Virus record (IMG/VR): IMGVR_UViG_3300037317_000025
Span: 1 to 64,000 of that record
Source: a virus
Length of the DNA stretch: 64,000 bases
Strand: one strand, 5' to 3'
The notes beneath the pieces are model-generated. The model was given only the letters and a program-made list of their open reading frames with translations. It did not search any database and was not told the origin of the DNA. Below are positions 3,058-20,510 of the stretch, piece after piece (the first letter of the stretch is position 1; each line of letters opens with the position of its first letter). The translations under genes were made by a program, and so were the position numbers.

Positions 3058-3081
3058 CTGGCGGGTGTCTCGTTACAATAT

Positions 3082-3106: not shown

Positions 3107-3111
3107 TACAG

Positions 3112-4174: not shown

Positions 4175-4218
4175 CTCTCGTGTCGTTCCTTTCTGTATCA
4201 TCAATTCCTTATGTTCTT

Positions 4219-4247
4219 ATTATAGCACACTGACAACACGGTGTCAA
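4219..4247 (-). promoter_or_regulatory. Early promoter P1 with full operator dyad
   Basis: Minus strand: TTGACA (4242-4247), 17 nt, TATAAT (4219-4224). The spacer completes a dyad TGACA...TGTCA. It drives 4174-3383 and the tRNA-like RNA. It is one of eight near-identical cassettes. Confidence 0.85.
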
Positions 4248-4265
4248 TAGGTTTGTAGGGCATTT

Positions 4266-4475
4266 TTACGACGATTCTTCCCGCGCCATCGCCAGCGCCA
4301 GCCCAACCACCGCACCGACAATACCCCACAGCAGCCAGCTTCCCGCATTCGCCTTCGCCGCCTCGACCAGCCACACGAGCAGGCCGAACAGGATCGCGCC
4401 CCAGGTCGGCACCAGCAGGCCCAGGACGGCGGCGACAAAGATGGGCGCGAACAGCCAGTAGAGAATGCGCCCCAT
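4266..4475 (-). CDS. Small membrane protein, two transmembrane segments
   Basis: 69 residues. Two hydrophobic helices are clear, about residues 4-38 (LYWLFAPIFVAAVLGLLV and following) and 47-62 (LLWGIVGAVVGLALA), with a charged KAN/REESS C-terminus. It overlaps the end of the SSB-like gene by one base, so it is the last gene of the P2 unit. Size and topology would allow a holin or superinfection-exclusion protein, but the gene is far from the lysis module and no assignment is made. Confidence 0.7.
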   Translation of the reverse strand: MGRILYWLFAPIFVAAVLGLLVPTWGAILFGLLVWLVEAAKANAGSWLLWGIVGAVVGLALAMAREESS

Positions 4476-5401
4476 CAGCCTGCCCTCCGTGCTATCGCCG
4501 CCCGCGCCTTCGCCGCCTGCGCGTGGTTCTCCGGGTCGCCCAGGTCGAACGCATCCACGCGCAACCGATAGCGCATGCCGATGCCGCTGCGGTTGTCCTC
4601 TAGCGAGAGCACGCCCGACACGAACACCGGGTCGCCTGGGTGCAGGGCGCTGGCTTCGCGTGCCAGCCCGTCGTAGGTATAGACGGTGAACAGGCTGTCG
4701 CCGCTCACGATTGTCAGGATGGCAACGTCGCGCCCGTCGCTCGTCGTGTCCTGCCGGGGCGGGTGTTTCAGCGTGCCCGACAGCGACAGCACGTTCAACG
4801 TCTGCGACTGGCGGGCCTCCTGCCAGCGCCGCTCTAGCGTGAGCCAGTCGGTATCCAGGCGCACGAACGCCGTGTCGCCCCGGCGCTCGACGGACGGCTG
4901 CGGGTGGCCGGGTTCGATCACCACCTGATCGCCTGTATAGACCGTGATGAGCTTATGCACGATCTCGCCCGACAGGTGCAACCCGTAGCGCTGTCCGTCG
5001 CTCTCAATCGACAGCGTGCAGGTGTCCTGGGTGAAGTTGATATAAGCCACCGTGCCGATCAATGGGTCGTCGGTGGTATCCTGCGCCGCCTTGCGTGCCG
5101 TTGCGGGCGGTTGACTGACATAGCGAGCGTCTATGTAGAGCGTTGCCAGGTCGTCGCCTGTCTGCGGGTGCTGCCAGAGTTCCAGCCCCACGCGCCCTTC
5201 GACATAGACGACCTGCCCCTCGCGTATCCAGTCGGCCTCGTCCATCAGGTCGTCCATCAGGTCAAGCTGATAGACCTGCTCGACAGGCGAACCAGGGTCA
5301 ACGAGCTTGACCTTGACCGCCGGGGGTCGCCCACGGGCGCGGTAGGAACGCGGCTCTCTGGCAACCTGGCCGATGAACTGGAAGTGGTTTATGTCTGCCA
5401 C
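4475..5401 (-). CDS. SSB-like protein with repeated OB-fold segments
   Basis: 308 residues from a GTG start. Two segments resemble single-stranded DNA-binding OB folds: residues 5-95 (INHFQFIGQVAREPRSY...QVVYVEGRVGLELW) and about 205-290 (LNVLSLSGTLKHPPRQ...DPVFVSGVLSLED). A third beta-rich stretch (LIGTVAYINFTQDTCTLSI...VVIEPGH) lies between. Bacterial SSB has one OB fold and an acidic tip; here the tip is replaced by an AKARAAIARRAG tail. Probable role: covering single-stranded DNA during phage replication or recombination. It lies near the end of the P2 unit. Confidence 0.65.
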   Translation of the reverse strand: MADINHFQFIGQVAREPRSYRARGRPPAVKVKLVDPGSPVEQVYQLDLMDDLMDEADWIREGQVVYVEGRVGLELWQHPQTGDDLATLYIDARYVSQPPATARKAAQDTTDDPLIGTVAYINFTQDTCTLSIESDGQRYGLHLSGEIVHKLITVYTGDQVVIEPGHPQPSVERRGDTAFVRLDTDWLTLERRWQEARQSQTLNVLSLSGTLKHPPRQDTTSDGRDVAILTIVSGDSLFTVYTYDGLAREASALHPGDPVFVSGVLSLEDNRSGIGMRYRLRVDAFDLGDPENHAQAAKARAAIARRAG

Positions 5402-5709
5402 GCCGCCACCTCGCTCTCAGTCCATTCCCACTGACATCGTAACCTTTGCAATATCATAACCTTTGCAATAACCAAAACAAAACCCCTTAATGCACAAGGT
5501 CAACTCATGGATGGTGAGTGTGCCATCAAAAGTGCAATGTACCCATTCCGTCGTACCATCGGCATCAAAACGGATATTAGTGCACCCTATTGTTATCATA
5601 AAATTCTCAAGCTGTTTCTGTCCGCTACTCTGCATATATGGCAACGGAATAGCATGAGAGGTCGATTTCCACAGTCTCACGCCGCTACCTCGCTCTCTGT
5701 CCATTCCCA
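5399..5709. repeat. 32-bp direct repeat flanking an inserted gene
   Basis: 5399-5430 and 5678-5709 are identical at 30 of 32 positions. Each copy encodes the end WEWTESEVAA of the ASCH protein frame. The 247 bp between them carry the AT-rich gene 5417-5680. This suggests insertion by a duplication event between the ASCH gene and the SSB-like gene. Confidence 0.7.
5417..5680 (-). CDS. Inserted 87-residue gene of low GC (moron-like)
   Basis: GTG start overlapping the TGA of the ASCH gene (GTGA). The protein has a beta-rich core (MITIGCTNIRFDADGTTEW) and a Cys-containing C-terminal region (CIKGFCFGYCKGYD). Base composition is visibly lower in GC than in both neighbours, and the gene is bracketed by the 32-bp direct repeat. 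It ends inside the second copy of the ASCH tail sequence. No family is recognised. It looks like a recently gained cargo gene. Confidence 0.55.
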   Translation of the reverse strand: MRLWKSTSHAIPLPYMQSSGQKQLENFMITIGCTNIRFDADGTTEWVHCTFDGTLTIHELTLCIKGFCFGYCKGYDIAKVTMSVGMD

Positions 5710-6153
5710 TAGACCCTGCCTGCCCGTTGCCGGGATGGGCGGGTCAAGCGGACACACGTCGGCCAGGAGCCAGGCATAGCGGCCTGATGAGTAGTCTCCG
5801 AAGGCGCGTTCTCGATCATCCAGGCACCAAACATACCCGTTGGATACATACAGGCCATTATCAAATGGTGGCTGCGCAGATGGCTCAATATCAACCGTTT
5901 CAACCACATCCATCAGGATGCACGTTGCCACGATGACACCGCGTGGCAAGGCGTAGCCCTTGAGCGCCTGTGCGAAAACGTCGTCGTGATACAACGCCAC
6001 AAGCCCACGCTCGCCACCCACCGGCCCCAGCCCCTTGCCCGCGTGGATAGCGAGCGGGCCGCGATAGCGCGTGCTCCAGCTACGGGTTTCAATACGCTTC
6101 GCCCCTATCGCCACCAGCGTGGCGTAGGGCTGGGTGAGTGTTAATGCTTTCAT
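5677..6153 (-). CDS. ASCH/PUA-like domain protein
   Basis: 158 residues. The start at 6153 is chosen because MKALTLTQPYATLVAIGAKR is the typical opening of ASCH-domain proteins, and GAGGAAC precedes it. The fold's GxKxxExRsw pattern is present as GAKRIETRSWSTRYRGPLAI, followed by AHAGK-type residues. ASCH proteins are PUA-like and bind RNA or modified nucleosides; several act on N4-acetylcytidine or occur beside DNA/RNA modification genes. Substrate here is unknown. Encoded in the P2 unit between small unknown genes and the SSB-like gene. Confidence 0.75.
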   Translation of the reverse strand: MKALTLTQPYATLVAIGAKRIETRSWSTRYRGPLAIHAGKGLGPVGGERGLVALYHDDVFAQALKGYALPRGVIVATCILMDVVETVDIEPSAQPPFDNGLYVSNGYVWCLDDRERAFGDYSSGRYAWLLADVCPLDPPIPATGRQGLWEWTESEVAA

Positions 6154-6160
6154 GTGTTCC

Positions 6161-6349
6161 TCACATTTGTAATGGTGGCTCTTCGCCTGAGATGTCGAGT
6201 TCAATCCGACGCATTTTGATAGTAACTTCCGGGTTCTTGCGTGCGTCGCACGTATACTCAAAACCGACAAACCCTTCAACCTCTTCGCCTGTGTCTGTGT
6301 TCACCAACTTCAACCCATCCTCCGGCGTATAGACGATCTTCAGTCTCAT
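6161..6349 (-). CDS. Hypothetical 62-residue beta-rich protein
   Basis: Starts MRLKIVYTPEDGLKLVNTDT and is followed at a short distance by the ASCH gene. Pattern is beta-strand rich with conserved-looking Gly/Glu turns and one Cys, resembling small phage protein-interaction modules. The start follows AAGGAGGTTGAC. Function unknown. Confidence 0.65.
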   Translation of the reverse strand: MRLKIVYTPEDGLKLVNTDTGEEVEGFVGFEYTCDARKNPEVTIKMRRIELDISGEEPPLQM

Positions 6350-6370
6350 GTCAACCTCCTTCGCATACTT

Positions 6371-7177
6371 TTACATACTCGCTTTTTCTTCCAGATACCG
6401 ATCCACGCTCGCCGCCGCATACCAGCCACGCCGGGACGGGTGGCGCTCGATCTTACCACGCTTCGCCAGACTGCCCACGAACTGGCGGCTCACGCCCAGG
6501 CGCTCCTGTGCCTCGTCCGTGGGGATGTACCCGGCCTCGCACAGCGCTGCCTGCTCGCGCTCCTGGCTGGCCTTCCAGGCGGCATGCTGCCGGGCTGCGA
6601 TGTCCTCCCGGTTGGCCGCGTAGTACGCACGGTCGTGCTCGCGCTTACCTTCCAGGTGGCACGCCTTGCATTCGGGTACGCGCTTCGTTCCGCCTGCGTA
6701 GCGATCTGCCCTGACGGTGTAATAGTCGTGCTCTGGCTTCGCCTGTCCGCACTTCGAGCAGACATACCAGAACTCGCCGCCCTCCGGCTCCGGGCCGTCC
6801 GGGTGCTGGCGCAGGTCGTGAACGTCCACAATTTCGCTCGCATCGACGACGGTGCGCCCGTCGCTGTCCAGTCGCGCCACGCGAACCGTGTTGCGCTCCT
6901 GGCGCATCCAGCCGAGCACCTGGACAGGAACCTGCTCCGCGTCCGTTGCTACCAGTGCCCGCTTGCCCGTCAACGCATCGACATCGACAGCAGACTGGCT
7001 GGTGTACCTGTCCACCGCCGCCGCGTCCACCGCCCACCGTTCATACGGCGCGCTGTCCATCGGCACCTTGCGGGCACGCAGTTCGCCGCGCCCGCACATG
7101 TCCCGAACCCGCTGCTCACTGTGTCCCAGGCGCTCGGCGGCCTGGGTGACGGTGAGTTCCTCGCGTGTGGTGGTCAT
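6371..7177 (-). CDS. Two-winged-helix DNA-binding protein with central zinc finger
   Basis: 268 residues. Residues 8-50 form a MerR/excisionase-like helix-turn-helix (TVTQAAERLGHSEQRVRDMC). Residues about 145-200 hold a C4 zinc-binding segment (CSKCGQ and CKACHLE) followed by HDRAYYAANRE, similar to HNH-associated fingers found in phage proteins. Residues about 215-260 form a second helix-turn-helix (PTDEAQERLGVSRQFVGSLA) with a Trp wing. It may bind DNA at two sites, like an excisionase or terminase-type adaptor, or regulate transcription. The start at 7177 follows GGAGTGGAGATATACTAAG. Confidence 0.65.
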   Translation of the reverse strand: MTTTREELTVTQAAERLGHSEQRVRDMCGRGELRARKVPMDSAPYERWAVDAAAVDRYTSQSAVDVDALTGKRALVATDAEQVPVQVLGWMRQERNTVRVARLDSDGRTVVDASEIVDVHDLRQHPDGPEPEGGEFWYVCSKCGQAKPEHDYYTVRADRYAGGTKRVPECKACHLEGKREHDRAYYAANREDIAARQHAAWKASQEREQAALCEAGYIPTDEAQERLGVSRQFVGSLAKRGKIERHPSRRGWYAAASVDRYLEEKASM

Positions 7178-7178
7178 C

Positions 7179-7415
7179 TTAGTATATCTCCACTCCTGGC
7201 GGCGGTTCGTCGTGGACTTCATCAATGTCTATCAGATCGCTCACCCAGGCATTCCAGTTTGCTCGAATATCGTTTGCAGATAGTATGTGTGCACCGTTTA
7301 ACGCTCCGTCAGCCACCCTAAATCGTGGGCCGTCGTTTCTCATTTCATGCACTGACACTACTATGTACCCGACCGTCCCGTCGTCCCAATCCATTCTGAT
7401 CGCTGCGTTTGTCAT
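7179..7415 (-). CDS. Hypothetical 78-residue protein
   Basis: Starts MTNAAIRMDWDDGTVGYIVV and ends EPPPGVEIY. Acidic, soluble, with no recognised motif. Lies 1 base ahead of the two-helix-turn-helix gene and follows the hairpin at 7438-7464 and an AGAAGGGAT leader, so expression is likely coupled within the P2 unit. Confidence 0.65.
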   Translation of the reverse strand: MTNAAIRMDWDDGTVGYIVVSVHEMRNDGPRFRVADGALNGAHILSANDIRANWNAWVSDLIDIDEVHDEPPPGVEIY

Positions 7416-7476
7416 CTCATCTATCCCTTCTGTATCCGGCGGGCCGACCCATTGCCGACCCGCCTGCTGCTATCAC

Positions 7477-7749
7477 CTATGCCGCCGGGCCGTTGCGGTA
7501 GCCCATCGCCTCGACCCGGTACACCTCACCAGAGAGGTGCGTGAACGTCGGCTCCGTCGCCGTGTAGAACACGATGGCGCGGTAGACCAGTTCAACGTGC
7601 TGCCGGGTGATGGTCGCCATAATCGGCGCTTTCCAGTCGCGCCGATCCTTCACTGCGTTGAATGCCGCCTGAAGCTGCTGCTCGCTGAAGCCGTGGTAGG
7701 TGAAGCCGTCCTGATGCTGAATGCCGTTGGTGTTCGCTGTGATAGTCAT
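7477..7749 (-). CDS. Hypothetical 90-residue protein
   Basis: Starts MTITANTNGIQHQDGFTYHG; residues 20-40 contain the FSEQQLQAAFNAVKDRRDWK helix and later residues HLSGEVYRVEAMGYRNG. A compact alpha/beta protein without membrane segments. The start overlaps the end of the upstream 134-residue gene by 4 nt (ATGA-type coupling). No family recognised. Confidence 0.7.
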   Translation of the reverse strand: MTITANTNGIQHQDGFTYHGFSEQQLQAAFNAVKDRRDWKAPIMATITRQHVELVYRAIVFYTATEPTFTHLSGEVYRVEAMGYRNGPAA

Positions 7750-8150
7750 CGTGTGGTTCCTTTCTGTATCTCAATCTCGAATGTAGCTGGCTTGGCTGCT
7801 GCAATCCAGGAAGCATGCGCGGAGGCGATTGTCTCAGACCACACATCCGGCGCGAAGTCCATCAATGTGCCATCTGCGGTAAGAATGCGCGATGCCTGAC
7901 AGCTTGGGTAGTGCTCACCTGTTGACATCTGCTTGAAGGTGTAGGCCGAGAAATTCGCCACGCCTGTGAAGCTATTCATTGCCATCTGTACAACGATTGC
8001 GGTTGCGCTGTATGTCGCTGCGTCCGGCCTCGGCAGTGTGCCAGCAGGAAACCCTTTGGGGCCGTTCTTGCGGATGCGGCGATTGGCGCTCGCGGGTACG
8101 TCTTTGCGGTGCCCACCGTTCTGTCGATACTCTACCTGGCTGCGTCTCAT
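7746..8150 (-). CDS. Hypothetical 134-residue protein, basic N-terminus
   Basis: First gene of the P2 unit. The start at 8150 is chosen since ATACAGAAAGGACACACGAG precedes it. Residues 1-35 are highly basic (MRRSQVEYRQNGGHRKDVPA...RRIRKNG), followed by a segment with small hydrophobic residues and one Cys. The C-terminus (FEIEIQKGTTR) overlaps the next gene. Possibly nucleic-acid binding, by charge only. Confidence 0.65.
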   Translation of the reverse strand: MRRSQVEYRQNGGHRKDVPASANRRIRKNGPKGFPAGTLPRPDAATYSATAIVVQMAMNSFTGVANFSAYTFKQMSTGEHYPSCQASRILTADGTLMDFAPDVWSETIASAHASWIAAAKPATFEIEIQKGTTR

Positions 8151-8189
8151 CTCGTGTGTCCTTTCTGTATCCTTTATTCTTATACACTT

Positions 8190-8218
8190 ATTATAGCACA
8201 CTGGTATTGCGGTGTCAA
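8190..8218 (-). promoter_or_regulatory. Early promoter P2 (half-dyad type)
   Basis: Minus strand: TTGACA (8213-8218), 17 nt, TATAAT (8190-8195). The distal half of the dyad reads ACCAG instead of TGTCAG. It drives the nine genes from 8150 down to 4266. Confidence 0.85.
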
Positions 8219-8256
8219 TAGGTTTACCAGTGGATTTTGCAAGGAATTTGCCGCGC

Positions 8257-8589
8257 CTATCGGTTATTCTTGATCGTGGCCCTGCCGCCTGTCAGGTGAC
8301 AATCGAAGTCGCTCACCAGCCCGCCCAGCGCAGCCACCGAGCGCCGCGCCAGATCAGGTAGCCACACCTCGCGCACGCGCTGCCCCTGCCAGGTGGTGAC
8401 CGCGCCCAGGTCGCCGCCCTGCCGCCGCACCCAGGCCGCGACAATCGACATATGCTGGTCGCCTGCTGTCCACTGGCGAACCACAAACCCGTCGCGCTCA
8501 GGGTCTACGATGGTGTAGTAGCGCGGGCGCTGGCCGGTGCGTGGGCATCGGCGCGGGCCGTAGTGGTGAGTCAGGTAGTAGCACTTCAC
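8257..8589 (-). CDS. Hypothetical 110-residue protein
   Basis: GTG start (VKCYYLTHHYGPRRCPRTGQ) overlapping the stop of the upstream zinc-ribbon gene. Two Cys and several His/Tyr residues lie near the N-terminus, then an RYYTIVDPERDGFVVRQW beta hairpin and a C-terminal DFDCHLTGG. Last gene of the P3 unit. No family recognised. Confidence 0.65.
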   Translation of the reverse strand: MKCYYLTHHYGPRRCPRTGQRPRYYTIVDPERDGFVVRQWTAGDQHMSIVAAWVRRQGGDLGAVTTWQGQRVREVWLPDLARRSVAALGGLVSDFDCHLTGGRATIKNNR

Positions 8590-8807
8590 AGCGGCAACCT
8601 CAACTGCTGCGGCTGCTGTGCCTCGTCCTGCTCCCGATGGTAGCACCGCACGCAGAGCACGCGGTTGTCCTCAGTGATATGGATGTCCTGATCGCCCGTC
8701 CGCCCTGGGCCGTGTCGCCGCTCGATGCCGAGCGACTTCTGGCAGCGTGTACAGCGCCAGTGTCGATCCTGTCCAGTCGGCGCGCCGTGGCTGTGGTAGG
8801 CACTCAT
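8586..8807 (-). CDS. Small zinc-ribbon protein
   Basis: 73 residues with two CxxC knuckles (CTRCQ about residue 19 and CVRCYH about residue 52), the spacing of a zinc ribbon. The segment between is basic and Gly-rich. It overlaps both neighbours by 4 nt. Such phage proteins often bind DNA or RNA polymerase. The exact role is not evident. Confidence 0.7.
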   Translation of the reverse strand: MSAYHSHGAPTGQDRHWRCTRCQKSLGIERRHGPGRTGDQDIHITEDNRVLCVRCYHREQDEAQQPQQLRLPL

Positions 8808-9025
8808 CGGGTTGGTTCCCTGCTGCTAAAATAGCGCAGCGCCGCTTGTGTGTGGCACGACTGACACACAATGCCCACGGCCTGAGCCGCCGGGATGTCC
8901 GGCATTGAATCCCCGCATTCGATGCAATACCCTGGCTTCCATTCCGGTTGGCGCGGCGCTGGGGTGATTGTGTTGTCTCTGATGCGCTGCGCCTTTGTTC
9001 GTCGTCCGCCTGGTCTAAATGGCAC
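8804..9025 (-). CDS. DksA/TraR-type C4 zinc-finger protein
   Basis: 73 residues from a GTG start preceded by AAGGGGGAAGATT. The N-terminus is basic and Pro/Arg-rich. The C-terminal half carries CIECGDSMPDIPAAQ and CQSCHT, the C4 finger of the DksA/TraR family, whose phage members modulate RNA polymerase. It lacks the usual long coiled coil, as in short TraR forms. Encoded between two other Cys-rich small genes of the P3 unit. Confidence 0.65.
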   Translation of the reverse strand: MPFRPGGRRTKAQRIRDNTITPAPRQPEWKPGYCIECGDSMPDIPAAQAVGIVCQSCHTQAALRYFSSREPTR

Positions 9026-9338
9026 AATCTTCCCCCTTATGGTGTTTTTGCTGATGCACCAGGTCAAGCGCTTTGTTGCTGCCGATGCCCTCCGCATAGG
9101 GATGGCAGCATACCGTTTTGTTTGCATTCGTAGCAATCCAGCACTTTGGGTAGCCATAGAACATATGCTGTGGCGCGTCCCGATCTTCCAGGTAGAGCAC
9201 CAGGATCGCCGGTTGTTCGATGCGTTCGGTTACTGTCCAGCGATACGGCCCATGTATACACAAGCCAGCCGGTGTGAGATCGCCCACCTGAAGCGGCTCC
9301 AGCAGGCGATATAAGTCAACGGGTGTCATCTTCGGCAT
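9015..9338 (-). CDS. Hypothetical 107-residue protein
   Basis: Starts MPKMTPVDLYRLLEPLQVGD at 9338, behind an excellent site (AAAAGGAGGCTGTA). Beta-rich with several Cys/His (CIHGPYRW, YPKCWIATNANKTVCCHPY), which could bind a metal. The reading frame is open upstream and joins a decayed C5-methyltransferase N-terminus (9339-9467), but the strong internal ribosome site marks the true start. Function unknown. Confidence 0.65.
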   Translation of the reverse strand: MPKMTPVDLYRLLEPLQVGDLTPAGLCIHGPYRWTVTERIEQPAILVLYLEDRDAPQHMFYGYPKCWIATNANKTVCCHPYAEGIGSNKALDLVHQQKHHKGEDCAI

Positions 9339-9467
9339 TACAGCCTCCTTTTCACGAACAGTCGGGTCGTTGTCGATGCCTCCGACGGATTGATAGCCAG
9401 CAGCAGCCAGGCCGAGATCGGCAAGGCCGCCGCCAGCAAAGAGGGTAAGGCAGGTTGATTGTGCCAT
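9339..9467 (-). pseudogene. Remnant N-terminus of a C5-cytosine DNA methyltransferase
   Basis: From the ATG at 9467 the frame reads MAQSTCLTLFAGGGLADLGL and continues AAAGYQSVGGIDND. This is motif I and the start of motif II of 5-methylcytosine methyltransferases (SAM-binding FAGGGG/FSGAGG loop). The PCQ, ENV and target-recognition parts are absent, and after about 37 residues it runs into the leader of the next gene. It is therefore a truncated remnant. It lies next to a PAPS-reductase-like gene, a common neighbour of phage C5-methylases. Confidence 0.65.
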
Positions 9468-9475
9468 AGGATACC

Positions 9476-10234
9476 TCACAGAAAGCACGTCCCTAGCCCA
9501 CACTGCCGATTGACACCACGATCCTCGCGGTCAATGTCGGCTTCCGCCAATGGCACGCGGTCACGATGCAACCAGAGGCGATCATCGTCTGCGGTGTCCA
9601 GCGGGGCAGCGTGGCGCAACTCCTCGTCGAGCTCAATCGCCGCCTGCCAGTCGTCCGGGTAGTTGTCGCGCAAATAGCGCCATTGCGCGTTGCCGCGATG
9701 CGGACACATCCAGCAGCTTGACTTGGGCGGCAAGGGCAACCCGGCCTGCTGGATCACCTGTTCGCAATCCTCGCGGGTGAGCATCAACTCAAGCAGGGGA
9801 TAGCGAATAGTCACCCACTTCTCGCTATCTTTCAGCGTAGCGCGGTGTCGCTCGTCCAACGTGAAGCCGATCCATATGTCAGCCTGTTGCACCCCCTGTG
9901 CCCGCAGCCAACGATTACGAACCCGCTTTTTCCACTCCACCGAGCAGTAGGTTCGCAACTGCCCCGTGCTGGTGTGCAACGGCATAAGTACATCGCCTTT
10001 GTGCGAGTACAGGTCAACCGTGCTCAGGTCGTGCGGCGCGATGTCCACGCGCAACCCGGCGCGATCCAGAAACGGTTGCATCACTTCGTCCAGATACTCC
10101 CATGTTGACGTGGCCTCGCGTCCGGTGTCTGCGATCACGATATAATCCGGGCGCGGCAACTTGCCAAGCACCACCAGGACACACATAGCGACGGATTGCA
10201 CACCGCCGCCGTAGCTAACAACCTGTTGTGTCAT
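9476..10234 (-). CDS. PAPS reductase-like (DndC-like) PP-loop protein
   Basis: 252 residues. The N-terminal YGGGVQS (residues 8-14) is the PP-loop of the adenine-nucleotide alpha-hydrolase superfamily. It is followed by VIADTGRE and a CSVEWKKR segment, then CWMCPHR (about residue 182) and a C-terminal CGLGTC; the four or five Cys could hold an iron-sulfur cluster. Family members reduce PAPS or act in DNA phosphorothioation. Phage versions often sit beside DNA methylases and their substrate is unknown. Part of the P3 unit, adjacent to the C5-methylase remnant. Confidence 0.8.
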   Translation of the reverse strand: MTQQVVSYGGGVQSVAMCVLVVLGKLPRPDYIVIADTGREATSTWEYLDEVMQPFLDRAGLRVDIAPHDLSTVDLYSHKGDVLMPLHTSTGQLRTYCSVEWKKRVRNRWLRAQGVQQADIWIGFTLDERHRATLKDSEKWVTIRYPLLELMLTREDCEQVIQQAGLPLPPKSSCWMCPHRGNAQWRYLRDNYPDDWQAAIELDEELRHAAPLDTADDDRLWLHRDRVPLAEADIDREDRGVNRQCGLGTCFL

Positions 10235-10244
10235 ATCATCGCTC

Positions 10245-10565
10245 TCAAATCTCTTCTAGCAGCCGCCACACGCGCTGCCGGACGGTGTGCCAATCTTCGC
10301 AGGTGAGCCAGCGCGAGGCGACCACCTCGTCGCCGGTAAAGTAGCCAGGGTGCGGCTCGTTCTGCCGCACGTTCGCGTAGTACCACGCCAGCCACACGCT
10401 GCCCGCGCCCGTGTCGGGGCCGTGATACACCTCGACCCAGGCGGCACGGGTGCCCTGTTCTACCACCTCGCAGTGGTAGAGATTGCGGGCTTCCCAATCG
10501 CCGTCTTGCAGGACGGTAGCAAAGTCAATGTCCGGGTGGGTGGCGTTGCCGTCGCAGGATGTCAC
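10245..10565 (-). CDS. Hypothetical 106-residue protein
   Basis: Starts MTSCDGNATHPDIDFATVLQ. Rich in Trp and acidic residues (WEARNLYHCEVVEQGT, VYHGPDTGAGSVWLAWYY, WLTCEDWHTVRQRVW). Such beta-rich Trp-containing small proteins are common in phage early regions. No membrane segment or catalytic motif. It overlaps the upstream 135-residue gene by 4 nt. Confidence 0.65.
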   Translation of the reverse strand: MTSCDGNATHPDIDFATVLQDGDWEARNLYHCEVVEQGTRAAWVEVYHGPDTGAGSVWLAWYYANVRQNEPHPGYFTGDEVVASRWLTCEDWHTVRQRVWRLLEEI

Positions 10566-10969: not shown

Positions 10970-11023
10970 CTCATCTATCCCCCAGGCAGGGCCAGCGCGG
11001 GCCGACCCTGCCGCTTATCGCTA

Positions 11024-11467: not shown

Positions 11468-11527
11468 TGTCTCTGTCCTTTCGGTATCAGGGGCCGGGCG
11501 CGGTGCTCGGCCCCGCTTGTCGTTGTC

Positions 11528-12157
11528 TCAGTCCTCATCCTTGAACAAGTCCGGGCGTTTCCGTGTGGCAAAACCAGGGAAAGCATTCTCGCGGGTAAGC
11601 TCTTCCTGGCGCGGTGGGAACAGTTCGTCCATTTCCGTCATTACCTGCTCGCGGCTCTTGCGCGGCACTTCGACCACCCGGCCCTGCTGCTGCGCATAGG
11701 CAGCTTCCAGTTCCGCCAGTTTGCGCTGCTGATAGACAATCTTCTGTTCAATCGCCGCCTTCTGTGCCTCATAGTCGCTGGCGGTCATCTGCGGCGCTTC
11801 GGGGGCGGCACTGGCGGGCTGCTCTCGCAGGGTCACACTCTTGCAGGACAACGCCTGCTGTGCTTCGTACATCCGAACCACCAGGCGCTTCGCGGCTGCG
11901 TGGGCGCAGGGCTTGCCGTGGGCTGCCGCCTCGCACGAGCACTGGCCGTTGACGGTGTAGCTACCCTTGCCGCTCTGCGAGGGGATGGTGGCCTCGCTGA
12001 TGCTGCCGTCCGGCGCGAAGGCGACCTTCACACTGTCGATACCCTTGAGGATGCCGAAGGCGCGGTCGAGGGCGCTGCGCCAGCGTGCGGGCATCTCGTT
12101 CTGTGCGGCCTGATTGTAGACTTCCGTGAGTTGCTTGAGGCTATAGTCGAAGTACAT
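11528..12157 (-). CDS. SWIM zinc-finger protein
   Basis: 209 residues, first gene of the P3 unit, start after AGAGAAAGGAAAAACGTG. Residues about 72-90 read CSCEAAAHGKPCAHAAA, the CxC...CxH pattern of SWIM fingers, used in DNA or protein binding. A coiled coil (residues 125-155, EAQKAAIEQKIVYQQRKLAE) and an acidic C-terminus with DELFPPR follow. SWIM proteins in phage and Rad51-paralogue systems take part in recombination. That role is possible but not shown. Confidence 0.75.
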   Translation of the reverse strand: MYFDYSLKQLTEVYNQAAQNEMPARWRSALDRAFGILKGIDSVKVAFAPDGSISEATIPSQSGKGSYTVNGQCSCEAAAHGKPCAHAAAKRLVVRMYEAQQALSCKSVTLREQPASAAPEAPQMTASDYEAQKAAIEQKIVYQQRKLAELEAAYAQQQGRVVEVPRKSREQVMTEMDELFPPRQEELTRENAFPGFATRKRPDLFKDED

Positions 12158-12197
12158 CACGTTTTTCCTTTCTCTATCCGAATTCACTTATGTACTT

Positions 12198-12226
12198 ATT
12201 ATAGCACACTGACATTGCATTGTCAA
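12198..12226 (-). promoter_or_regulatory. Early promoter P3 with full operator dyad
   Basis: Minus strand: TTGACA (12221-12226), 17 nt, TATAAT (12198-12203). Spacer begins ATGCAATGTCAG, giving TGACA...TGTCA. It drives the genes from 12157 down to 8257. Confidence 0.85.
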
Positions 12227-12262
12227 TAGGTTTATAAGGGAATCCGGAGGGGATTTTTAGCC

Positions 12263-12739
12263 TTACCAGAGCGATGTTTGCACGGGCACTGTGCCGACAA
12301 GCTGACCAGCTCCGTGCTTGCTGCGAGTACACGTCGCATCCTCAAGCCAGCGCTGTGCTCGCAGGTTGCGCGCCCAGATGTTGACCAGTGTCAGGATGTC
12401 CCGCTGGGCGCGGGCGTTCCGGTGTGTGATCTCGCCGCGCTCGTTGACCTTTGCACAGACCGTGTATGCGCCGACCGGGTGCTGCGTGCATTCAACGGGC
12501 GACCAGCCCTCGACCGTGGTGGTCGAGAAGACGATCTCAGGATCGTACATCAGATCGCCATTTTGTACAAATGTGTGAGCCACCGCGACAATACCGGGTG
12601 CCAGCACTTCGATTCGGAGCCGCTGGAAGCCGTCCATATCAAACTGAAGATACGCGCCGGGGAGTGCCAGATCAACGCCTTCGCGCCGTGCCAACTGCTC
12701 AATTGCCTTCTTGAACGTCTTACTTGCTGCGATTGTCAT
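12263..12739 (-). CDS. Hypothetical 158-residue phage protein
   Basis: Starts MTIAASKTFKKAIEQLARRE, preceded by GAAAGGAAACACA. The central motif NGDLMYDPEIVF is one I associate with phage/plasmid DUF6908-type proteins, followed by TQHPVGAYTVCAKVNERGEI. Soluble, alpha/beta. Encoded directly after the tmRNA-like RNA in the P4 unit. Family assignment is tentative and function unknown. Confidence 0.65.
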   Translation of the reverse strand: MTIAASKTFKKAIEQLARREGVDLALPGAYLQFDMDGFQRLRIEVLAPGIVAVAHTFVQNGDLMYDPEIVFSTTTVEGWSPVECTQHPVGAYTVCAKVNERGEITHRNARAQRDILTLVNIWARNLRAQRWLEDATCTRSKHGAGQLVGTVPVQTSLW

Positions 12740-12786
12740 TGTGTTTCCTTTCGTTATCCGCCAATGGCTTCGTCTTATAGTATACA

Positions 12787-12918
12787 TGGTGGAGGCGGCG
12801 GGAGTCGAACCCGCGTCCCGAACGTTGGTGCCCTGGCGGGCTGGAGCGTTTCGCGGCTGGTTCTGTGCGCCTTCCCGCTACCGCGCTCCCCGTCGCCCGG
12901 TCGATACCGAGCGCCCCC
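12787..12918 (-). ncRNA. Mini tmRNA-like / tRNA-like RNA, 132 nt, encoded CCA
   Basis: Minus strand. The 5' end GGGGGCG pairs with CGCCTCC before ACCA. The T-arm is perfect (GCGGG, TTCGACT, CCCGC), and the 3' segment GGACGCGGGTTCGACTCCCG matches the known tmRNA 3' end. After the 5' acceptor strand, GGTATCGACCGGG resembles the tmRNA D-like segment (GGxTTCGACxGG). Only about 85 nt lie between instead of about 280, and no tag reading frame with a stop is seen. A hairpin GCGCTC/GAGCGC follows the 5' end. It may be a reduced tmRNA mimic, a deletion remnant, or an attachment-site copy of host ssrA. It starts 18 nt after the stop of the 70-residue gene. Confidence 0.55.
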
Positions 12919-12935
12919 TTACGGCATGCGACGCA

Positions 12936-13148
12936 TCACCGCACTTTCTCAAAGAGCGCCACACACTCCAGTGGCGTCCATTCCGGCACACCGAAGAAGT
13001 ACCAGCCGCCTCCTGCCAACGGGCGCATCTTGTCCACTTTCGCCCAGGTGCGGGTATCGCGGGGCATTGTCGTAACCTCCACAATCTTGACGTGTACCAT
13101 GTCCGTCGCCCGCTCCATCGTGCCATCCGGGGTAATCTGCTCTGCCAT
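12936..13148 (-). CDS. Hypothetical 70-residue protein
   Basis: Starts MAEQITPDGTMERATDMVHV behind CAGAAAGGACATACCGAT. It contains GGGWYFFGVPEWTPLECVAL and a short basic tail. Directly upstream of the tmRNA-like RNA and first gene of the P4 unit. No recognised family. Confidence 0.65.
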   Translation of the reverse strand: MAEQITPDGTMERATDMVHVKIVEVTTMPRDTRTWAKVDKMRPLAGGGWYFFGVPEWTPLECVALFEKVR

Positions 13149-13189
13149 ATCGGTATGTCCTTTCTGTATCATCAATTCCTTATACACTT

Positions 13190-13218
13190 ATTCTAGCACA
13201 CTGGTAACACGGTGTCAA
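13190..13218 (-). promoter_or_regulatory. Early promoter P4 (half-dyad type)
   Basis: Minus strand: TTGACA (13213-13218), 17 nt, TAGAAT (13190-13195). The second half-site reads ACCAG. It drives 13148, the tmRNA-like RNA and 12739. Confidence 0.8.
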
Positions 13219-13310
13219 TAAGTATACAAAGGAATTTTGAGGCAATTTTGTCGATACCGATGGACTATTCCGGGCGGTCGTTCGCTGCTGTGACCACCCG
13301 GAAACGCTGG

Positions 13311-13619
13311 CTACTGAGAAATAATAAACCAGTCCCGTGGGGCCACAACGCCAATATCCAGAACCTTCACCACCAGGCCGGTCGTGTCGCGTGTGTTTAC
13401 ATACCGATGATAATCACTGTTGACCGCAAGGCCGATCATCCCTGGTTGTTCCGTTCCCCAGGCCCAGAACGGACTCCGGCTCTTGTCGTGCCAGACCTGC
13501 CAGCCAGGTACGTGGTCAAAAGCGGCGGCCATAATCTCCCGGATATACACCGGTGCTTGCTCGGTCACACCAGTAACATAGCCTATCGGGGTCGTTATGC
13601 GCGGGCTTACCTGTTCCAT
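13311..13619 (-). CDS. Hypothetical 102-residue protein
   Basis: Starts MEQVSPRITTPIGYVTGVTE. Trp/Phe-rich middle (GWQVWHDKSRSPFWAWGTEQ) and a beta-strand C-terminus ending WFIISQ. Second gene of the P5 unit, behind hairpin 13644-13668 and an AGAAAGGAAC leader. No family recognised. Confidence 0.65.
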   Translation of the reverse strand: MEQVSPRITTPIGYVTGVTEQAPVYIREIMAAAFDHVPGWQVWHDKSRSPFWAWGTEQPGMIGLAVNSDYHRYVNTRDTTGLVVKVLDIGVVAPRDWFIISQ

Positions 13620-13680
13620 ATCGGTAGTTCCTTTCTGTCATCTGGGGCCGGATACCACACCCGGCCCCGCTTGCTTATCC

Positions 13681-13992
13681 CTAGCCGATCATCCCTGTTA
13701 CGTAGTCCAGTGCCGCCTGTGCTGTGTCGAAAGCACCCGCGTGTGTGTCGCGGTGTTCGGGCGGGTCGTAGTAGCTCAGGCTGCCGATGAGCTGCCAGTG
13801 GGTGACGTGCCAGTCGCCGTCCTCCACCAATTCGTAGTAGTCCCGGCCTGCACCGCGCTCATAGATGACCAGCACATCGCCGTCAACCTCGCAATCCAGA
13901 CCCATCTCACCAGCGGCAGCACGGGCGGTTTCCACCGGGTCGGTATCGCCCTCTTCGGGTGTATCCAATATAACCTGTGTGCGCGTTTCCAT
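13681..13992 (-). CDS. Hypothetical 103-residue acidic protein
   Basis: Starts METRTQVILDTPEEGDTDPV. Highly acidic first half, then YERGAGRDYYELVEDGDWHV and DPPEHRDTHAGAFDTAQAAL. First gene of the P5 unit. Acidity and early promoter suggest an interaction protein, but nothing specific can be assigned. Confidence 0.65.
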   Translation of the reverse strand: METRTQVILDTPEEGDTDPVETARAAAGEMGLDCEVDGDVLVIYERGAGRDYYELVEDGDWHVTHWQLIGSLSYYDPPEHRDTHAGAFDTAQAALDYVTGMIG

Positions 13993-14035
13993 TGCCTCGT
14001 GTTTCCTTTCGGTATCACTAATTTCTTATGTTCTT

Positions 14036-14064
14036 ATTCTAGCACACTGGTATGGTAATGTCAA
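14036..14064 (-). promoter_or_regulatory. Early promoter P5 (half-dyad type)
   Basis: Minus strand: TTGACA (14059-14064), 17 nt, TAGAAT (14036-14041). It drives 13992 and 13619. The upstream AAAATTGCCTCAAAATTCC block is shared with P4 and P6. Confidence 0.8.
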
Positions 14065-14108
14065 TAGGTTTGTGAAGGAATTTTGAGGCAATTTTGTGGC
14101 ATATCAAA

Positions 14109-14131
14109 GCCCCTGGCCGGGTACCAGGGGC
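14109..14131 (-). terminator. Terminator-like hairpin after the 250-residue gene
   Basis: Stem GCCCCTGG / CCAGGGGC (8 bp, 7-nt loop), followed on the minus strand by a short TTTGAT. It lies between the P6 unit and promoter P5. Confidence 0.55.
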
Positions 14132-14155
14132 GCGGACGGGCGGGCGGTTGCACCA

Positions 14156-14908
14156 CTATATCCATTCGTAGCGCGAGTCGAAGTAGGCGACCGTTTGCCC
14201 GGTCGTGCTCGCGTCCGCGTGAATCCAGTAGAACTTATCACCCTTAAAGCTCATCTCGGCAAGAGCGACCCATTCGTCCAGGTCGCGCCCGCTCAGGCGA
14301 TCTTGATCCAGATAGGCACGAACAAAGCTCTCCAGTGAATCGGCCTCGACCCGGCATGCCCAGAGCCACGCCCGCCCGTGTTCGTCCCGTTCCAGGCAGC
14401 GATACGGAACGGCGGGTTCCACATATACATACGCGACGACGTGCTCATCATTGTGCAGGCTGTAGCCAGCGCAGGTGTCCAACAGCACGGCGGTCGTGTC
14501 GCTGGCAAACAACCGCAGGATGCCGTTCATCTCTTGCTGGCTGGCAACGGCGAACGATGCGGGGTCGTGGTGATACGCCGCCGCACCCTTGTCGCGCAGC
14601 CAGGTAAACCGCCGATAGGTAGCGACATCTACTCGCGTGTACCCAGGGCGCGGGCCTGTTGCCAGCGCCGTGTGACCGCTCATGTAGTTTATCAGGTGCC
14701 AGGTTTTATGGTCGTACATGCTTATTGTCGGCGCATCCGGCTCCGGGTCACTAAACATATCCACCGTGGGCGCGTCCGGCTTCGGATTGACTTCGGGCAT
14801 GAACGGGCTGTCGCTGCCCGTTGCGGGCGTGCCACTGAACAGGGGCAGGTCGTCCGTGCCGAACATAGTTCCGGCTGCCAGGGCTTGCTTTTGCTTCTTG
14901 CGTGTCAT
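14156..14908 (-). CDS. Hypothetical 250-residue protein
   Basis: Starts MTRKKQKQALAAGTMFGTDD. Residues 20-70 are a low-complexity Pro/Asp linker with a repeated DAPT(V/I)(D/S)M(F/Y) motif. The remainder is an alpha/beta domain with DTCAGYSLHNDEHVVAYVYV and a C-terminal FYWIHADASTTGQTVAYFDS. No recognised family. Last gene of the P6 unit. Confidence 0.65.
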   Translation of the reverse strand: MTRKKQKQALAAGTMFGTDDLPLFSGTPATGSDSPFMPEVNPKPDAPTVDMFSDPEPDAPTISMYDHKTWHLINYMSGHTALATGPRPGYTRVDVATYRRFTWLRDKGAAAYHHDPASFAVASQQEMNGILRLFASDTTAVLLDTCAGYSLHNDEHVVAYVYVEPAVPYRCLERDEHGRAWLWACRVEADSLESFVRAYLDQDRLSGRDLDEWVALAEMSFKGDKFYWIHADASTTGQTVAYFDSRYEWI

Positions 14909-14972
14909 CTCTCGTGGTTCCTTTCTGGTATCCGAGGGCGGGCGCGGTGCCCGCCTCGCTTGTCGCTGCCGA

Positions 14973-15380
14973 TTATTCCAACCCTACCCGCTCGCCGCCG
15001 ATCTCGCTATCATAAACCTCCCAGCGACAGCCCTGGTTGAATGCCGAAACCAGTTCGTCATAGTAGGCCGGGTCTTCCTGGTAATAACTCACCTGCGGGC
15101 ACGCCACCAGCGCCGGGTTATCGCGGTCAATCCAGCCCGTGCTATCGCGCACCACGGTGATCGCTGCGCCACCGTGCCGATAGATAGCGCGATGAAAAGC
15201 AGATGGCGGTTCGACCCAGGTGAAAGGTGCCACCTGTACCTTGCGCGGCTTGCCAGCGCTGTGGCGGGTGCGCTTCGTTGACCCCTTGACCGTTCGCTCG
15301 CTGCTGGGCAGGAATTGCCCGCCGTCGTAGTGCTCTCCGTTCTTGCCTGTGGTGCCGCCCCTGGGTGCTCGTGTAGTCAT
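14973..15380 (-). CDS. Hypothetical 135-residue protein
   Basis: Starts MTTRAPRGGTTGKNGEHYDG; the N-terminal third is Gly/Lys/Arg-rich (FLPSSERTVKGSTKRTRHSA), typical of small phage proteins that contact nucleic acid. The C-terminal domain contains VVRDSTGWIDRDNPALVACP. Hairpins stand before its ribosome site (15406-15430) and after its stop (14934-14957). Confidence 0.65.
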   Translation of the reverse strand: MTTRAPRGGTTGKNGEHYDGGQFLPSSERTVKGSTKRTRHSAGKPRKVQVAPFTWVEPPSAFHRAIYRHGGAAITVVRDSTGWIDRDNPALVACPQVSYYQEDPAYYDELVSAFNQGCRWEVYDSEIGGERVGLE

Positions 15381-15447
15381 CTCTCGTGTTTCCTTTCTGG
15401 TATCCGAGGGCGGGCGCGGTGCCCGCCCTCGCTTGTCGCTACTTACA

Positions 15448-15630
15448 CTACCGACCGAGCAATCGGGCGTACTTCTCTGTGGCGGCCTGCATAATAGCAG
15501 ATATCAGAGCTTTCCTGTCCTGGTTCGTGTCGATACCATACACTGCGGCGCGCTGGCGAAGCTCCTCATCAGACAATTCCTTCAATCCGAACGTTTCCTG
15601 GTGGTGAGCAATCTGAATAGCTTCAAACAT
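15448..15630 (-). CDS. Small SAP/Rho-N-like domain protein
   Basis: 60 residues, start after CAGAAAGGACACACGACA. The segment LSDEELRQRAAVYGIDTNQD followed by RKALISAIM has the helix-extension-helix pattern of SAP/Rho-N-type nucleic-acid-binding motifs. First gene of the P6 unit. A stand-alone helix-extension-helix protein would be a small DNA- or RNA-binding accessory. Confidence 0.6.
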   Translation of the reverse strand: MFEAIQIAHHQETFGLKELSDEELRQRAAVYGIDTNQDRKALISAIMQAATEKYARLLGR

Positions 15631-15671
15631 TGTCGTGTGTCCTTTCTGTATCATCAATTCCTTATGTATCT

Positions 15672-15700
15672 ATTATAGCACACTGACATTATAATGTCAA
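15672..15700 (-). promoter_or_regulatory. Early promoter P6 with perfect operator dyad
   Basis: Minus strand: TTGACA (15695-15700), 17 nt, TATAAT (15672-15677). TTGACATTATAATGTCA is a near-perfect palindrome covering -35 and spacer, the best operator of the set. It drives 15630 to 14156. Confidence 0.85.
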
Positions 15701-15750
15701 TAGGTATACCAGGGAATTTTGAGGCAATTTTGCCGACGCAACGCGCTATT

Positions 15751-16209
15751 TTAGAACAGCGATAATTGTTCTACCACGGGCGCGGGCGCGGCGCTGGTAC
15801 CTTTCGGGGCACTGCCAGGGTACAGGTGCTCGACCGTTGCGCCCAGCGCGTCTGCCAGGTCGTGCGCGGCAGTCGTGCGGTGGCAGGTGTGGTGATCACG
15901 GCAGCCGCACAGCAGCACCACGGGGCGCTCGGCGAGGATGGGAGCCAGCGCCGCAACGCCTGCCTGGGCATTGACCAGCTTGATCGGCCCGCCGTTCTTG
16001 TAGTTCTCGTTGCCGAGCGCCTTCAGGTGCCGGTAGCTGCCAGCGCCGACCAGCTTTGCCAGGTTGCCGCCCGCCCATTGCGGCTGGCGCGAGCGGGGAC
16101 TGAAGCGCACGTCTACCAGTATTGCGCCGAGGGCGTGGATCGTGTCGCGGAGTTGCTCTGGTTTCCAACCGCTATAGCCAATGGTGTAAATCGTGTGTGT
16201 CGTGTGCAT
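15751..16209 (-). CDS. DUF488 family protein
   Basis: 152 residues. MHTTHTIYTIGYSGWKPEQL is the typical opening of DUF488 proteins (TIGxS...F), followed by VDVRFSPRSRQPQW and a Cys cluster (CGCRDHHTCHR) near residue 117. The family is widespread in phages and bacteria without a proven activity; conserved Arg and Cys/His residues suggest a nucleic-acid or redox role. Start chosen after AGGAAAGGATAGCGACA. Second gene of the P7 unit. Confidence 0.8.
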   Translation of the reverse strand: MHTTHTIYTIGYSGWKPEQLRDTIHALGAILVDVRFSPRSRQPQWAGGNLAKLVGAGSYRHLKALGNENYKNGGPIKLVNAQAGVAALAPILAERPVVLLCGCRDHHTCHRTTAAHDLADALGATVEHLYPGSAPKGTSAAPAPVVEQLSLF

Positions 16210-16265
16210 TGTCGCTATCCTTTCCTGTGGGCGACCCAGACCAGCCAGGTCGCCCGGTTCGTTGC

Positions 16266-16484
16266 TTAGTGGTAACACTTACCGTATCGTTTACTATGAC
16301 CCGCCTGCGAGGCCGTGACGTGCGCTTGCTGGCAATTCGGGCAGACAACCAGATGGGTGCGGGGCGCGGGGCGGGCGGCTTCGCGCTGGCGGTCGATCTC
16401 AATCTGTGCGAACATCGGAAGGTCAAGCAGGTTGTGCCCACCGCCGTCTACCTTCACGCCTGCCCGCTCAAACATATCATTCAT
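16266..16484 (-). CDS. Hypothetical 72-residue protein with Cys/His knuckle
   Basis: Starts MNDMFERAGVKVDGGGHNLL; the C-terminal part has CPNCQQAHV, GHSKRYGKCYH, a possible C2-H-C zinc site. First gene of the P7 unit. Function unknown. Confidence 0.65.
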   Translation of the reverse strand: MNDMFERAGVKVDGGGHNLLDLPMFAQIEIDRQREAARPAPRTHLVVCPNCQQAHVTASQAGHSKRYGKCYH

Positions 16485-16523
16485 CGTTCTGTCCCTTCCG
16501 TATCACTAATTTCTTATGTTCTT

Positions 16524-16552
16524 ATTCTAGCACACTGGTATGGTAATGTCAA
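16524..16552 (-). promoter_or_regulatory. Early promoter P7 (half-dyad type)
   Basis: Minus strand: TTGACA (16547-16552), 17 nt, TAGAAT (16524-16529). It drives 16484 and the DUF488 gene. The core is the same as P5. Confidence 0.8.
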
Positions 16553-16604
16553 TAGGTTTATAAGGGAATTTTGCAAGGAATTTGCCGCCACAAAAGGCAA
16601 TTCG

Positions 16605-16634
16605 CGCCCCTGGTGTCAGGTTGCACCAGGGGCG
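16605..16634 (-). terminator. Terminator-like hairpin after parB
   Basis: An 11-bp perfect stem, CGCCCCTGGTG / CACCAGGGGCG, with 8-nt loop directly after the ParB stop. The T-tract that follows is weak (CCTTTTG), so it may also act as a 3' stabiliser. Confidence 0.55.
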
Positions 16635-16641
16635 CGGGCGG

Positions 16642-17505
16642 CTACATCGCTGCGTAATTCGCCTTGACCAGTTCGTCTAGTAAGGTGCTGACTGCGAGTG
16701 CCTCATCGCCAAGACCAGCGTCCTCTAACTGCTGCATATAGGCCAGCAATACCTTTGCAGTGCCGCCCTGCTTCACTTCCATGCTGGGCATTTTGCCGTT
16801 GCGGCGCAACCCGGTTGCGCGCTGCGTGCGCTTGCCCTTGCTCTCCAGTTCCGCCACTTTCTCGCGGCTATAGGCTTCCAGGTCAAACATTGCGGGCTGA
16901 TCCTGGATAGCCTGCAATTCGCCGACCATCGCCCGAAACTTGCGCAGCGGCGGCATTCCGGCGGTATCGTTCAAAATCTTCACCGCCTGAGTCTGATAGT
17001 ATTCCGACAGCCCGGTCATTGCTTCCGCGTGGCCGATAGGCAGCGCGCCGCTCGTAACCATCTTGCGCACGTCGTCAACCAGCGCCAGCAGGCCGACACG
17101 CTTCTGGACATACTCTTTACTCTTGCCCGTCGCTTCTGCAATCTCTGCCGCGCTCATGCCGAAGCGCTCAATACGCTCCTGGTACGCTGCCGCCTCTGCC
17201 ATCGGGTCAAGGTCAACCCGGTTCACGTTCTCAACCAGCATAATGGTGCTGGCCGCTTTGTCGTCCAGTTCCCGCACGATGGCCGGTATCTCTGTCCATC
17301 CGAGCACGTCCCGGCAGGCGCGGGTGCGGCGTTCGCCAGCGACAATCTCCAGACGACCGTCGGGCAGCGGACGGTACGTGGGCGGCTGTGCAAGGCCGTC
17401 GCGCTGAATGCTTGCGGCTAGTTCCTCAAGTTCCTGCTGATCGAATGCCCGACGGTCGTTGTTGCCTGCGATGACCTGTGAGAGTTTGACGTTCGTGATT
17501 TCCAT
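16642..17505 (-). CDS. parB: ParB/RepB/Spo0J family protein
   Basis: 287 residues. The N-terminal ParB domain has Box I (LDGRLEIVAGERRTRACRDV region, GERR about residue 57) and ENVNRVDLDPMAEAAAY (Box II). A central helix-turn-helix (SAAEIAEATGKSKEYVQKRV) binds the centromere-like site. The C-terminus is helical for dimerisation. ParB proteins load on parS DNA as CTP-dependent clamps, normally with a ParA; none is in the window, while a ParM/ParR set is at 49.9 kb. Sole gene of the P8 unit, so its control differs from the second ParB. Confidence 0.85.
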   Translation of the reverse strand: MEITNVKLSQVIAGNNDRRAFDQQELEELAASIQRDGLAQPPTYRPLPDGRLEIVAGERRTRACRDVLGWTEIPAIVRELDDKAASTIMLVENVNRVDLDPMAEAAAYQERIERFGMSAAEIAEATGKSKEYVQKRVGLLALVDDVRKMVTSGALPIGHAEAMTGLSEYYQTQAVKILNDTAGMPPLRKFRAMVGELQAIQDQPAMFDLEAYSREKVAELESKGKRTQRATGLRRNGKMPSMEVKQGGTAKVLLAYMQQLEDAGLGDEALAVSTLLDELVKANYAAM

Positions 17506-17546
17506 ACCAGTGTTTCCTTTCTGTAATCCTTTATCCTTATGTACTT

Positions 17547-17575
17547 ATTATAGCACACTGGTATGGTGATGTCAA
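17547..17575 (-). promoter_or_regulatory. Early promoter P8 (half-dyad type)
   Basis: Minus strand: TTGACA (17570-17575), 17 nt, TATAAT (17547-17552). It drives parB at 17505 alone. Confidence 0.85.
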
Positions 17576-17625
17576 TAGGTTTTGAGGGCAATTTGAGGCG
17601 ATTTTGCCGATTGTGCCGCGCTATC

Positions 17626-20498: not shown

Positions 20499-20510
20499 CG
20501 CTGCGATTAC

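Follow-up and report, generated by a model that had tools for sequence, protein, structure and literature searches.

What reads the eight near-identical promoter-like cassettes that lie between positions 4219 and 17575 of the uncultured virus record IMGVR_UViG_3300037317_000025, and do they form a phage regulon, as an earlier note on this DNA had proposed? The window analysed here comprises bases 1-64000 of the 75,346-bp record, the remainder (63001-75346) was also examined, and genes were called with a simple in-house model. We propose that the cassettes probably constitute an array of strong promoters for early genes, of the host housekeeping (sigma-A) type. All eight sites were recovered where the earlier note had placed them, the positions being the ends of their -10 elements, and all eight lie on the minus strand. 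They share the core ACCTA-TTGACA-N9-CAGTGTGC-TA(T/G)AAT, followed by an ATAAG...GATACAGAAAGGA leader and preceded by AAAATT tracts. As described before, TTGACA, a spacer of exactly 17 nt and a constant block ahead of the -10 element (CAGTGTGC) are present in 8/8 cassettes, and the -10 element is TATAAT in P1, P2, P3, P6 and P8 and TAGAAT in P4, P5 and P7. The string TTGACA-N17-TATAAT was observed six times against 0.00 expected (100 shuffles); the sixth occurrence, at 34093(-), is not a cassette. With a profile of the core, eight sites and no more score 60-70, the next best site scoring 11.9, and separate profiles of the upstream part and the leader part rank the same eight sites at the top. 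The motif search over the complete record, suggested earlier as a check, likewise gave exactly eight, with no ninth copy in the 75,346 bp at up to 2 mismatches. The spacing of 0.85-4.0 kb agrees with the repeat of about 1-4 kb noted previously, and the cassettes are found only in intergenic regions, directly 5' of start codons. They are listed here with the open reading frame (ORF) that each is predicted to drive:

4187..4280, minus strand: P1 cassette (-35 at 4247-4242, -10 at 4224-4219, ribosome site at 4194-4187); drives ORF 3929-4174 (81 amino acids, aa)
8159..8251, minus strand: P2 cassette; drives ORF 7746-8150 (134 aa) and the next genes up to an HTH_17 gene and an SSB-like gene
12166..12259, minus strand: P3 cassette; drives ORF 11528-12157 (209 aa, weak SWIM match)
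13158..13251, minus strand: P4 cassette, -10 TAGAAT; drives ORF 12936-13148 (70 aa), then a transfer-messenger RNA (tmRNA)-like RNA and a DUF6908 gene
14004..14097, minus strand: P5 cassette, -10 TAGAAT; drives ORF 13681-13992 (103 aa)
15640..15733, minus strand: P6 cassette, spacer with the perfect palindrome TGACATTATAATGTCA; drives ORF 15448-15630 (60 aa, weak SAP match)
16492..16585, minus strand: P7 cassette, -10 TAGAAT; drives ORF 16266-16484 (72 aa)
17515..17608, minus strand: P8 cassette; drives a ParB-like gene (287 aa)

The architecture of the cassettes is that of a complete promoter with a translation start attached. The AAAATT tracts are phased at about -67 and -56, 11 bp apart, and an AT-rich TTATAAA at about -47 to -41 occupies the position expected for an UP element. 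The 17-nt spacer ends in TGTGC immediately before the -10 element, which we take to be an extended -10 of the TRTGN type. ATAAG lies at the predicted transcription start within an AT-rich region, and the distance from the -10 element to the ATG is 40-45 nt in 8/8, giving leaders of 33-38 nt with a ribosome site of the AGAAAGGA type. The earlier note had this ribosome site in all cassettes; it is exact in 6/8, and P5 and P7 carry CGAAAGGA and GGAAGGGA, respectively. Similarly, an upstream AAAATTG...AAAATTCC block attributed to every cassette is exact in P4, P5 and P6, and in the other five this position is occupied by degenerate AT tracts. Practically no structure is predicted for 7/8 leaders (folding energies of 0.0 to -0.4 kcal/mol), that of P5 folding at -3.7 kcal/mol.

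Alignment of the cassettes, also proposed before, revealed block-wise conservation. Mean pairwise identity is 1.00 for TTGACA and for CAGTGTGC, 0.95 for ACCTA, 0.91 for the -10 element, 0.86 for ATAAG and 0.73 for the seven bases 3' of the -10 element, and it drops to 0.54 in the AT-tract region, 0.49 in the N9 part of the spacer and 0.27-0.30 at more than about 40 bp 5' of the -35 element. Because flanks past about 70 bp cannot be aligned among the cassettes and the free positions are randomised, the shared blocks are selected rather than recently copied. Conservation tracks the predicted promoter anatomy, and the invariant blocks are, as judged from this alignment, kept by function and not by recency. 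The full hexamers, the TRTGN motif, the UP-like tracts, the fixed -10-to-ATG distance, the ribosome site and the block-wise conservation all bear out the description as promoter cassettes. The same alignment shows that P5 and P7 are identical in sequence from TTGACA into the leader, and that the leader GGAATTGATGATACAG is paired with three different spacers (P1, P4 and P6), as if the parts had been shuffled. Together with the fact that the conserved block stops at gene boundaries, this might indicate that the cassettes are mainly recombination boundaries for swapping small gene modules and promoters only secondarily. A variable N9 within invariant hexamers is not what selection for homology only would produce, and we regard this explanation as extremely improbable.

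If the cassettes are indeed sigma-A promoters, host RNA polymerase would read all eight upon entry of the DNA. One optimal promoter and ribosome-site module every 1-4 kb would capture both polymerase and ribosomes, and its repetition would give each short operon a high initiation rate, so that distal genes would be expressed as strongly as proximal ones. We speculate that the copies spread through duplication or through recombination between cassettes and that selection holds them alike. The reading by host sigma-A, the early timing and the takeover function are what we infer from these features, and several observations weigh against them. The sigma-A consensus assumed for the host is the universal one and may not be its own. 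The CAG before TGTGC and the ACCTA before the -35 element are conserved beyond what plain sigma-A recognition needs, an excess that could point to a further DNA-binding protein or to shared ancestry. In addition, a SigA-like factor encoded by the phage could read the same sites, and some of the driven genes (SSB-like, ParB, HTH) would fit middle expression equally well.

The phage sigma factor deserves closer consideration:

45171..46025, plus strand: primary-type (SigA-like) sigma factor, 284 aa, with regions 1.2, 2 and 4 (Pfam)

This protein matches a PHROG family with E = 9e-70 and SigA structures with 1e-62, and shares roughly 40-49% identity with the best of its full-length relatives. In the alignment to SigA, residues W107/W108/Q111/T114, H129/E132 and R259/E260/R263/Q264 are kept. 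These presumably correspond to sigma70 W433/W434/Q437/T440, which contact the -10 element, to H455/E458, which contact the TG motif, and to R584/E585/R588/Q589, which contact the -35 element. Its gene, part of a rightward block, follows a promoter of another kind at 42441(+). One might speculate that the cassettes form a middle class, to which the phage sigma factor directs polymerase after its operon has been expressed; the primary-type protein with intact contact residues and the different promoter ahead of its own gene are consistent with this. However, with these contact residues intact, the phage sigma factor should read the same promoters as host sigma-A, and the cassettes would not depend on it. 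The hexamers, the spacer and the extended -10 of the cassettes follow the general sigma-A consensus, and a consensus distinct to the phage factor was not seen. In SPO1, such arrays are used with host sigma-A before the phage's own sigma factor is made, which also weighs against a dependence on the phage protein. We consider a phage-sigma regulon unlikely, and the factor itself a possible reader of the cassettes without an exclusive claim to them.

SigA-like phage sigma factors are common in viral contigs, with 499 matches in one scan. We searched 29 other sigma-bearing viral records and a terminase relative (G001) for TTGACA-N14-TGNTATAAT with at most 1 mismatch. Seven of the 29 (G002, G006, G008, G012, G013, G014 and G017) contain 22-46 sites each, with 0-1 sites for the reversed-pattern control, and these dense full-consensus arrays agree with the proposed sigma-A array and would also speak for a link between array and phage sigma factor. 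In contrast, no such array was present in 22/29, many of which are fragments. Since the comparison covered sigma-bearing records only, we do not claim an association between arrays and sigma factors. AT-rich stretches of G014, G006, G013 and G008 hold 19-35 near-consensus sigma-A promoters per 14-16 kb; the arrays inspected cluster in 10-15 kb and lie mostly on one strand.

The conserved ACCTA and CAG raise the further question of whether a phage repressor or activator binds the -35 and spacer region (ACCTATTGACA-N6-TRYCAGTG) in all eight cassettes, in the manner of extended start-associated sequences (ESAS) or of a lysogeny repressor. Both motifs are (near-)invariant beyond promoter needs, and the phage encodes several candidate DNA-binding proteins (HTH_17, ParB/HTH, XRE and a small Cro-like protein). 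A TGACA-N6-TGTCA dyad with 5-bp arms is found in three cassettes (P1, P3 and P6) and nowhere else in the record, and TAAACCTA, common to the cassettes and the minus-strand promoter at 34093(-), recurs there at 34097(-). But TACCA replaces TGTCA in the other 5/8, leaving no palindrome conserved across all eight, and an identity of only 49% in N9 is unlike an operator. The phage also encodes a CI-like regulator:

41688..42410, minus strand: XRE/CI-like regulator

The intergenic region beside it (42411-42742) contains a TTGACA-N16-TATAAT promoter and two TATGCGCA...TGCGCATA inverted repeats, which do not occur in the cassettes. It appears that the CI-like repressor has putative operators of a different kind, and 42411-42742 is likely a lysogeny switch. 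We consider an operator shared by all eight cassettes quite unlikely. The regulon of the earlier note holds up as a set of promoters, and a shared regulator is not supported, given the lack of a common palindrome and the different repeats beside the CI-like gene. For the same reasons, the missing common dyad and the differing inverted repeats, a reading as stoperators or immunity operators was rejected. As P8 drives a ParB-like protein, parS sites were also considered and rejected; a palindrome of about 16 bp was not found at each site and is perfect only in P6. The 34065-34145 region itself consists of two strong back-to-back promoters, 34093(-) and 34113(+), whose -35 boxes are about 20 bp apart.

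The array is not the only repeated promoter type in this phage. A second family, TRTGCTATAATACCYGTAGWTATTGGC, comprises three sites at 490, 3108 and 20537, all leftward:

463..490, minus strand: second-family site 1, upstream of ORF 166-429
3081..3108, minus strand: second-family site 2, upstream of the portal gene (1522-3057)
20510..20537, minus strand: second-family site 3, upstream of ORF 19842-20498 (matches PHROG 645 'Rnase E')

Their consensus, TRTGCTATAATACC(C/T)GTAG(A/T)TATTGGC(A/G), is conserved over 28 nt. A 16-mer search allowing up to 3 mismatches, for which 0.29 chance matches are expected in the window, found two sites as exact matches and one with 1 mismatch. The best match to a -35 element at any spacing of 15-19 is 3/6, and a hairpin with a T-run precedes 2/3 sites. 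The phage carries, by sequence, two predicted promoter classes, one of the -35/-10 type and one of the extended -10 type, which suggests a possible switch from early (-35/-10) to late (extended -10) transcription. The -35-independent family would be the later class, used once recognition of the -35 element has been blocked or replaced. In a more elaborate version, an early product would disable region 4 of host sigma-A and silence the -35/-10 promoters of the host, a resistant phage sigma factor would keep the cassettes as a private regulon, and the disabled host enzyme would serve the late genes through the three -35-less sites. We consider such a sigma swap very unlikely; if true, a mimic of the primary sigma factor would underlie the change of promoter class. 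Extended -10 promoters are also found at 22592-22900, where two divergent ones overlap (ATTATAGCAC...GTGCTATAAT) in the interval that separates a TnpB gene from a 75-aa Cro-like gene.

Returning to the proposed sigma-A array, each of the eight leftward cassettes is followed by one or several genes, mostly small and without an assigned function. No Pfam match was obtained for 5/8 first genes, the rest being P3 (SWIM, weak), P6 (SAP, weak) and P8 (ParB). Further genes in these units code for SSB-like, ASCH, HTH_17/excisionase-like, DUF488, DUF6908 and PAPS-reductase-like proteins, and the portal gene lies beyond P1 with its own promoter of another class. Features within and between the units are:

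16642..17505, minus strand: ParB_N + HTH_ParB protein, first gene of the P8 unit
13268..13303, minus strand: strong hairpin just upstream of P4; the intergenic region folds at -30.8 kcal/mol
14109..14131, minus strand: terminator-like hairpin upstream of P5
16603..16636, minus strand: terminator-like hairpin upstream of P7, 13-bp stem

The phage encodes an actin-like (ALP_N/MreB-like) protein at 49929-50903 (+) and two proteins with a ParB domain (16642-17505 and 17626-18405). The tmRNA-like RNA of the P4 unit (12787-12918, minus strand, 132 nt) scores 56.9 bits against the Rfam tmRNA model (gathering threshold 47) and has an acceptor stem, a T arm and an encoded CCA; its messenger part is only some 50 nt, with no evident tag frame, and ARAGORN gives no call. 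A second, tRNA-like RNA of 165 nt (3178-3342, minus strand) combines a 7-bp acceptor stem, a perfect T arm and an encoded CCA with a long structured insert, and is matched by neither Rfam nor ARAGORN.

Searches for relatives gave no second example of the cassette. It was absent from GTDB genomes, and no other viral contig contained the full cassette; matches to the bare core in 31 contigs lacked the cassette flanks, and a relaxed pattern returned three stray contigs only. Blastn of 12001-20000 of the window against a phage collection gave no match, scans with ParB and with a recombination-directionality-factor-like protein revealed no relative, and the sole terminase relative recovered (47%, 28 kb) lacks an array. 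TnpB, used as a lead to the host, had no genome match, and its best plasmid matches are below 30% identity. We describe a promoter array of unusual uniformity, in a phage for which no close relative was found in the collections. What is new is the presence of a repeated promoter, a second family without a -35 element and a primary-type sigma factor in one genome. With these together, the sequence predicts in what order the genes are expressed, and whether such arrays are served by SigA-like phage sigma factors can be put to a direct test.

How does the array compare with repeated sites in other phages? The earlier note had likened it to mycobacteriophage stoperators and start-associated sequences (SAS). 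Stoperators are characterised as asymmetric repressor-binding sites that stop elongation (PMC9283540; PMC4351075). As in cluster A, oriented sites are repeated over the phage genome, but the likeness goes no further: stoperators are promoterless repressor sites, some of them in genes, whereas all eight cassettes are full promoters at gene starts, confined to intergenic regions. The likeness to SAS is closer than supposed. The ESAS of Adephagia, present in seven 46-47-bp copies, combine SigA-like hexamers with an inverted repeat, adjoining the start-associated sequence (PMC11373665), and being full promoters does not set the cassettes apart from them. Pope et al. had left the function of the cluster K ESAS open (PMC3203893). 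Both types are intergenic SigA-like promoters with a spacer of 17-18 nt and an attached start or ribosome-site block, repeated before small genes. In contrast, ESAS contain an inverted repeat that is long and imperfect (TGTTGACATGCATACAG...), together with the start-associated GGGATAGGAGCCCAC; the present cassettes have a perfect -35 element, TRTGN, a -10 element, UP-like tracts and another ribosome site. In the Adephagia copies, which we read directly, TTGACA lies within the long inverted repeat, and that repeat is absent here. Neither an imperfect inverted repeat of 15-17 bp in every copy nor a 13-bp SAS within 3-9 bp of the start codon was found, the leader and ribosome site being of unrelated sequence, and we see no sequence relationship between the cassettes and ESAS.

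In the cluster O phage Corndog, eight or nine SigA promoters have been predicted (PL1-PL6 and PR1-PR3; PMC4351075), several of which similarly split a leftward gene block into operons. Unlike the cassettes, they are not described as copies of one element, some of their messages are predicted to be leaderless, and the repeated 17-bp palindrome of Corndog is not tied to promoters. The proposed early-to-late switch is modelled on gp39 of Thermus phage P23-45 and on T4 AsiA, which block -35/-10 promoters and spare extended -10 promoters (PMC7403470). The two promoter classes are shared with these phages, and the P23-45 terminase is distantly related to the one encoded here (26%). However, no homologue of gp39 or gp76 was found in the present phage, and the early genes of P23-45 are read by a virion RNA polymerase and not by that of the host (PMC10770324).

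The host-takeover region of SPO1 contains many strong sigma-A promoters that combine an A-tract upstream with an extended -10 of the TRTGN type, and each is followed by one or a few small genes that have good ribosome sites (PMC6873191). Analysis of this region by the script applied to the cassettes showed an upstream A-tract, TTGAC(A/T), an extended -10 of the GTGTGN type, ATAAT and an AT-rich start. Near-consensus sigma-A promoters, upstream A/T tracts, an extended -10, small genes and strong ribosome sites are common to both arrays, although we see no relatedness between the two phages. The SPO1 promoters are located on both strands of the terminal redundancy, and its copies are less alike than the cassettes, both before the -10 element (0.45 vs 1.00) and in the first 20 nt after it (0.39 vs 0.67). 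Taken together, repeated strong promoters are a known phage strategy for seizing host RNA polymerase and not a new control system.

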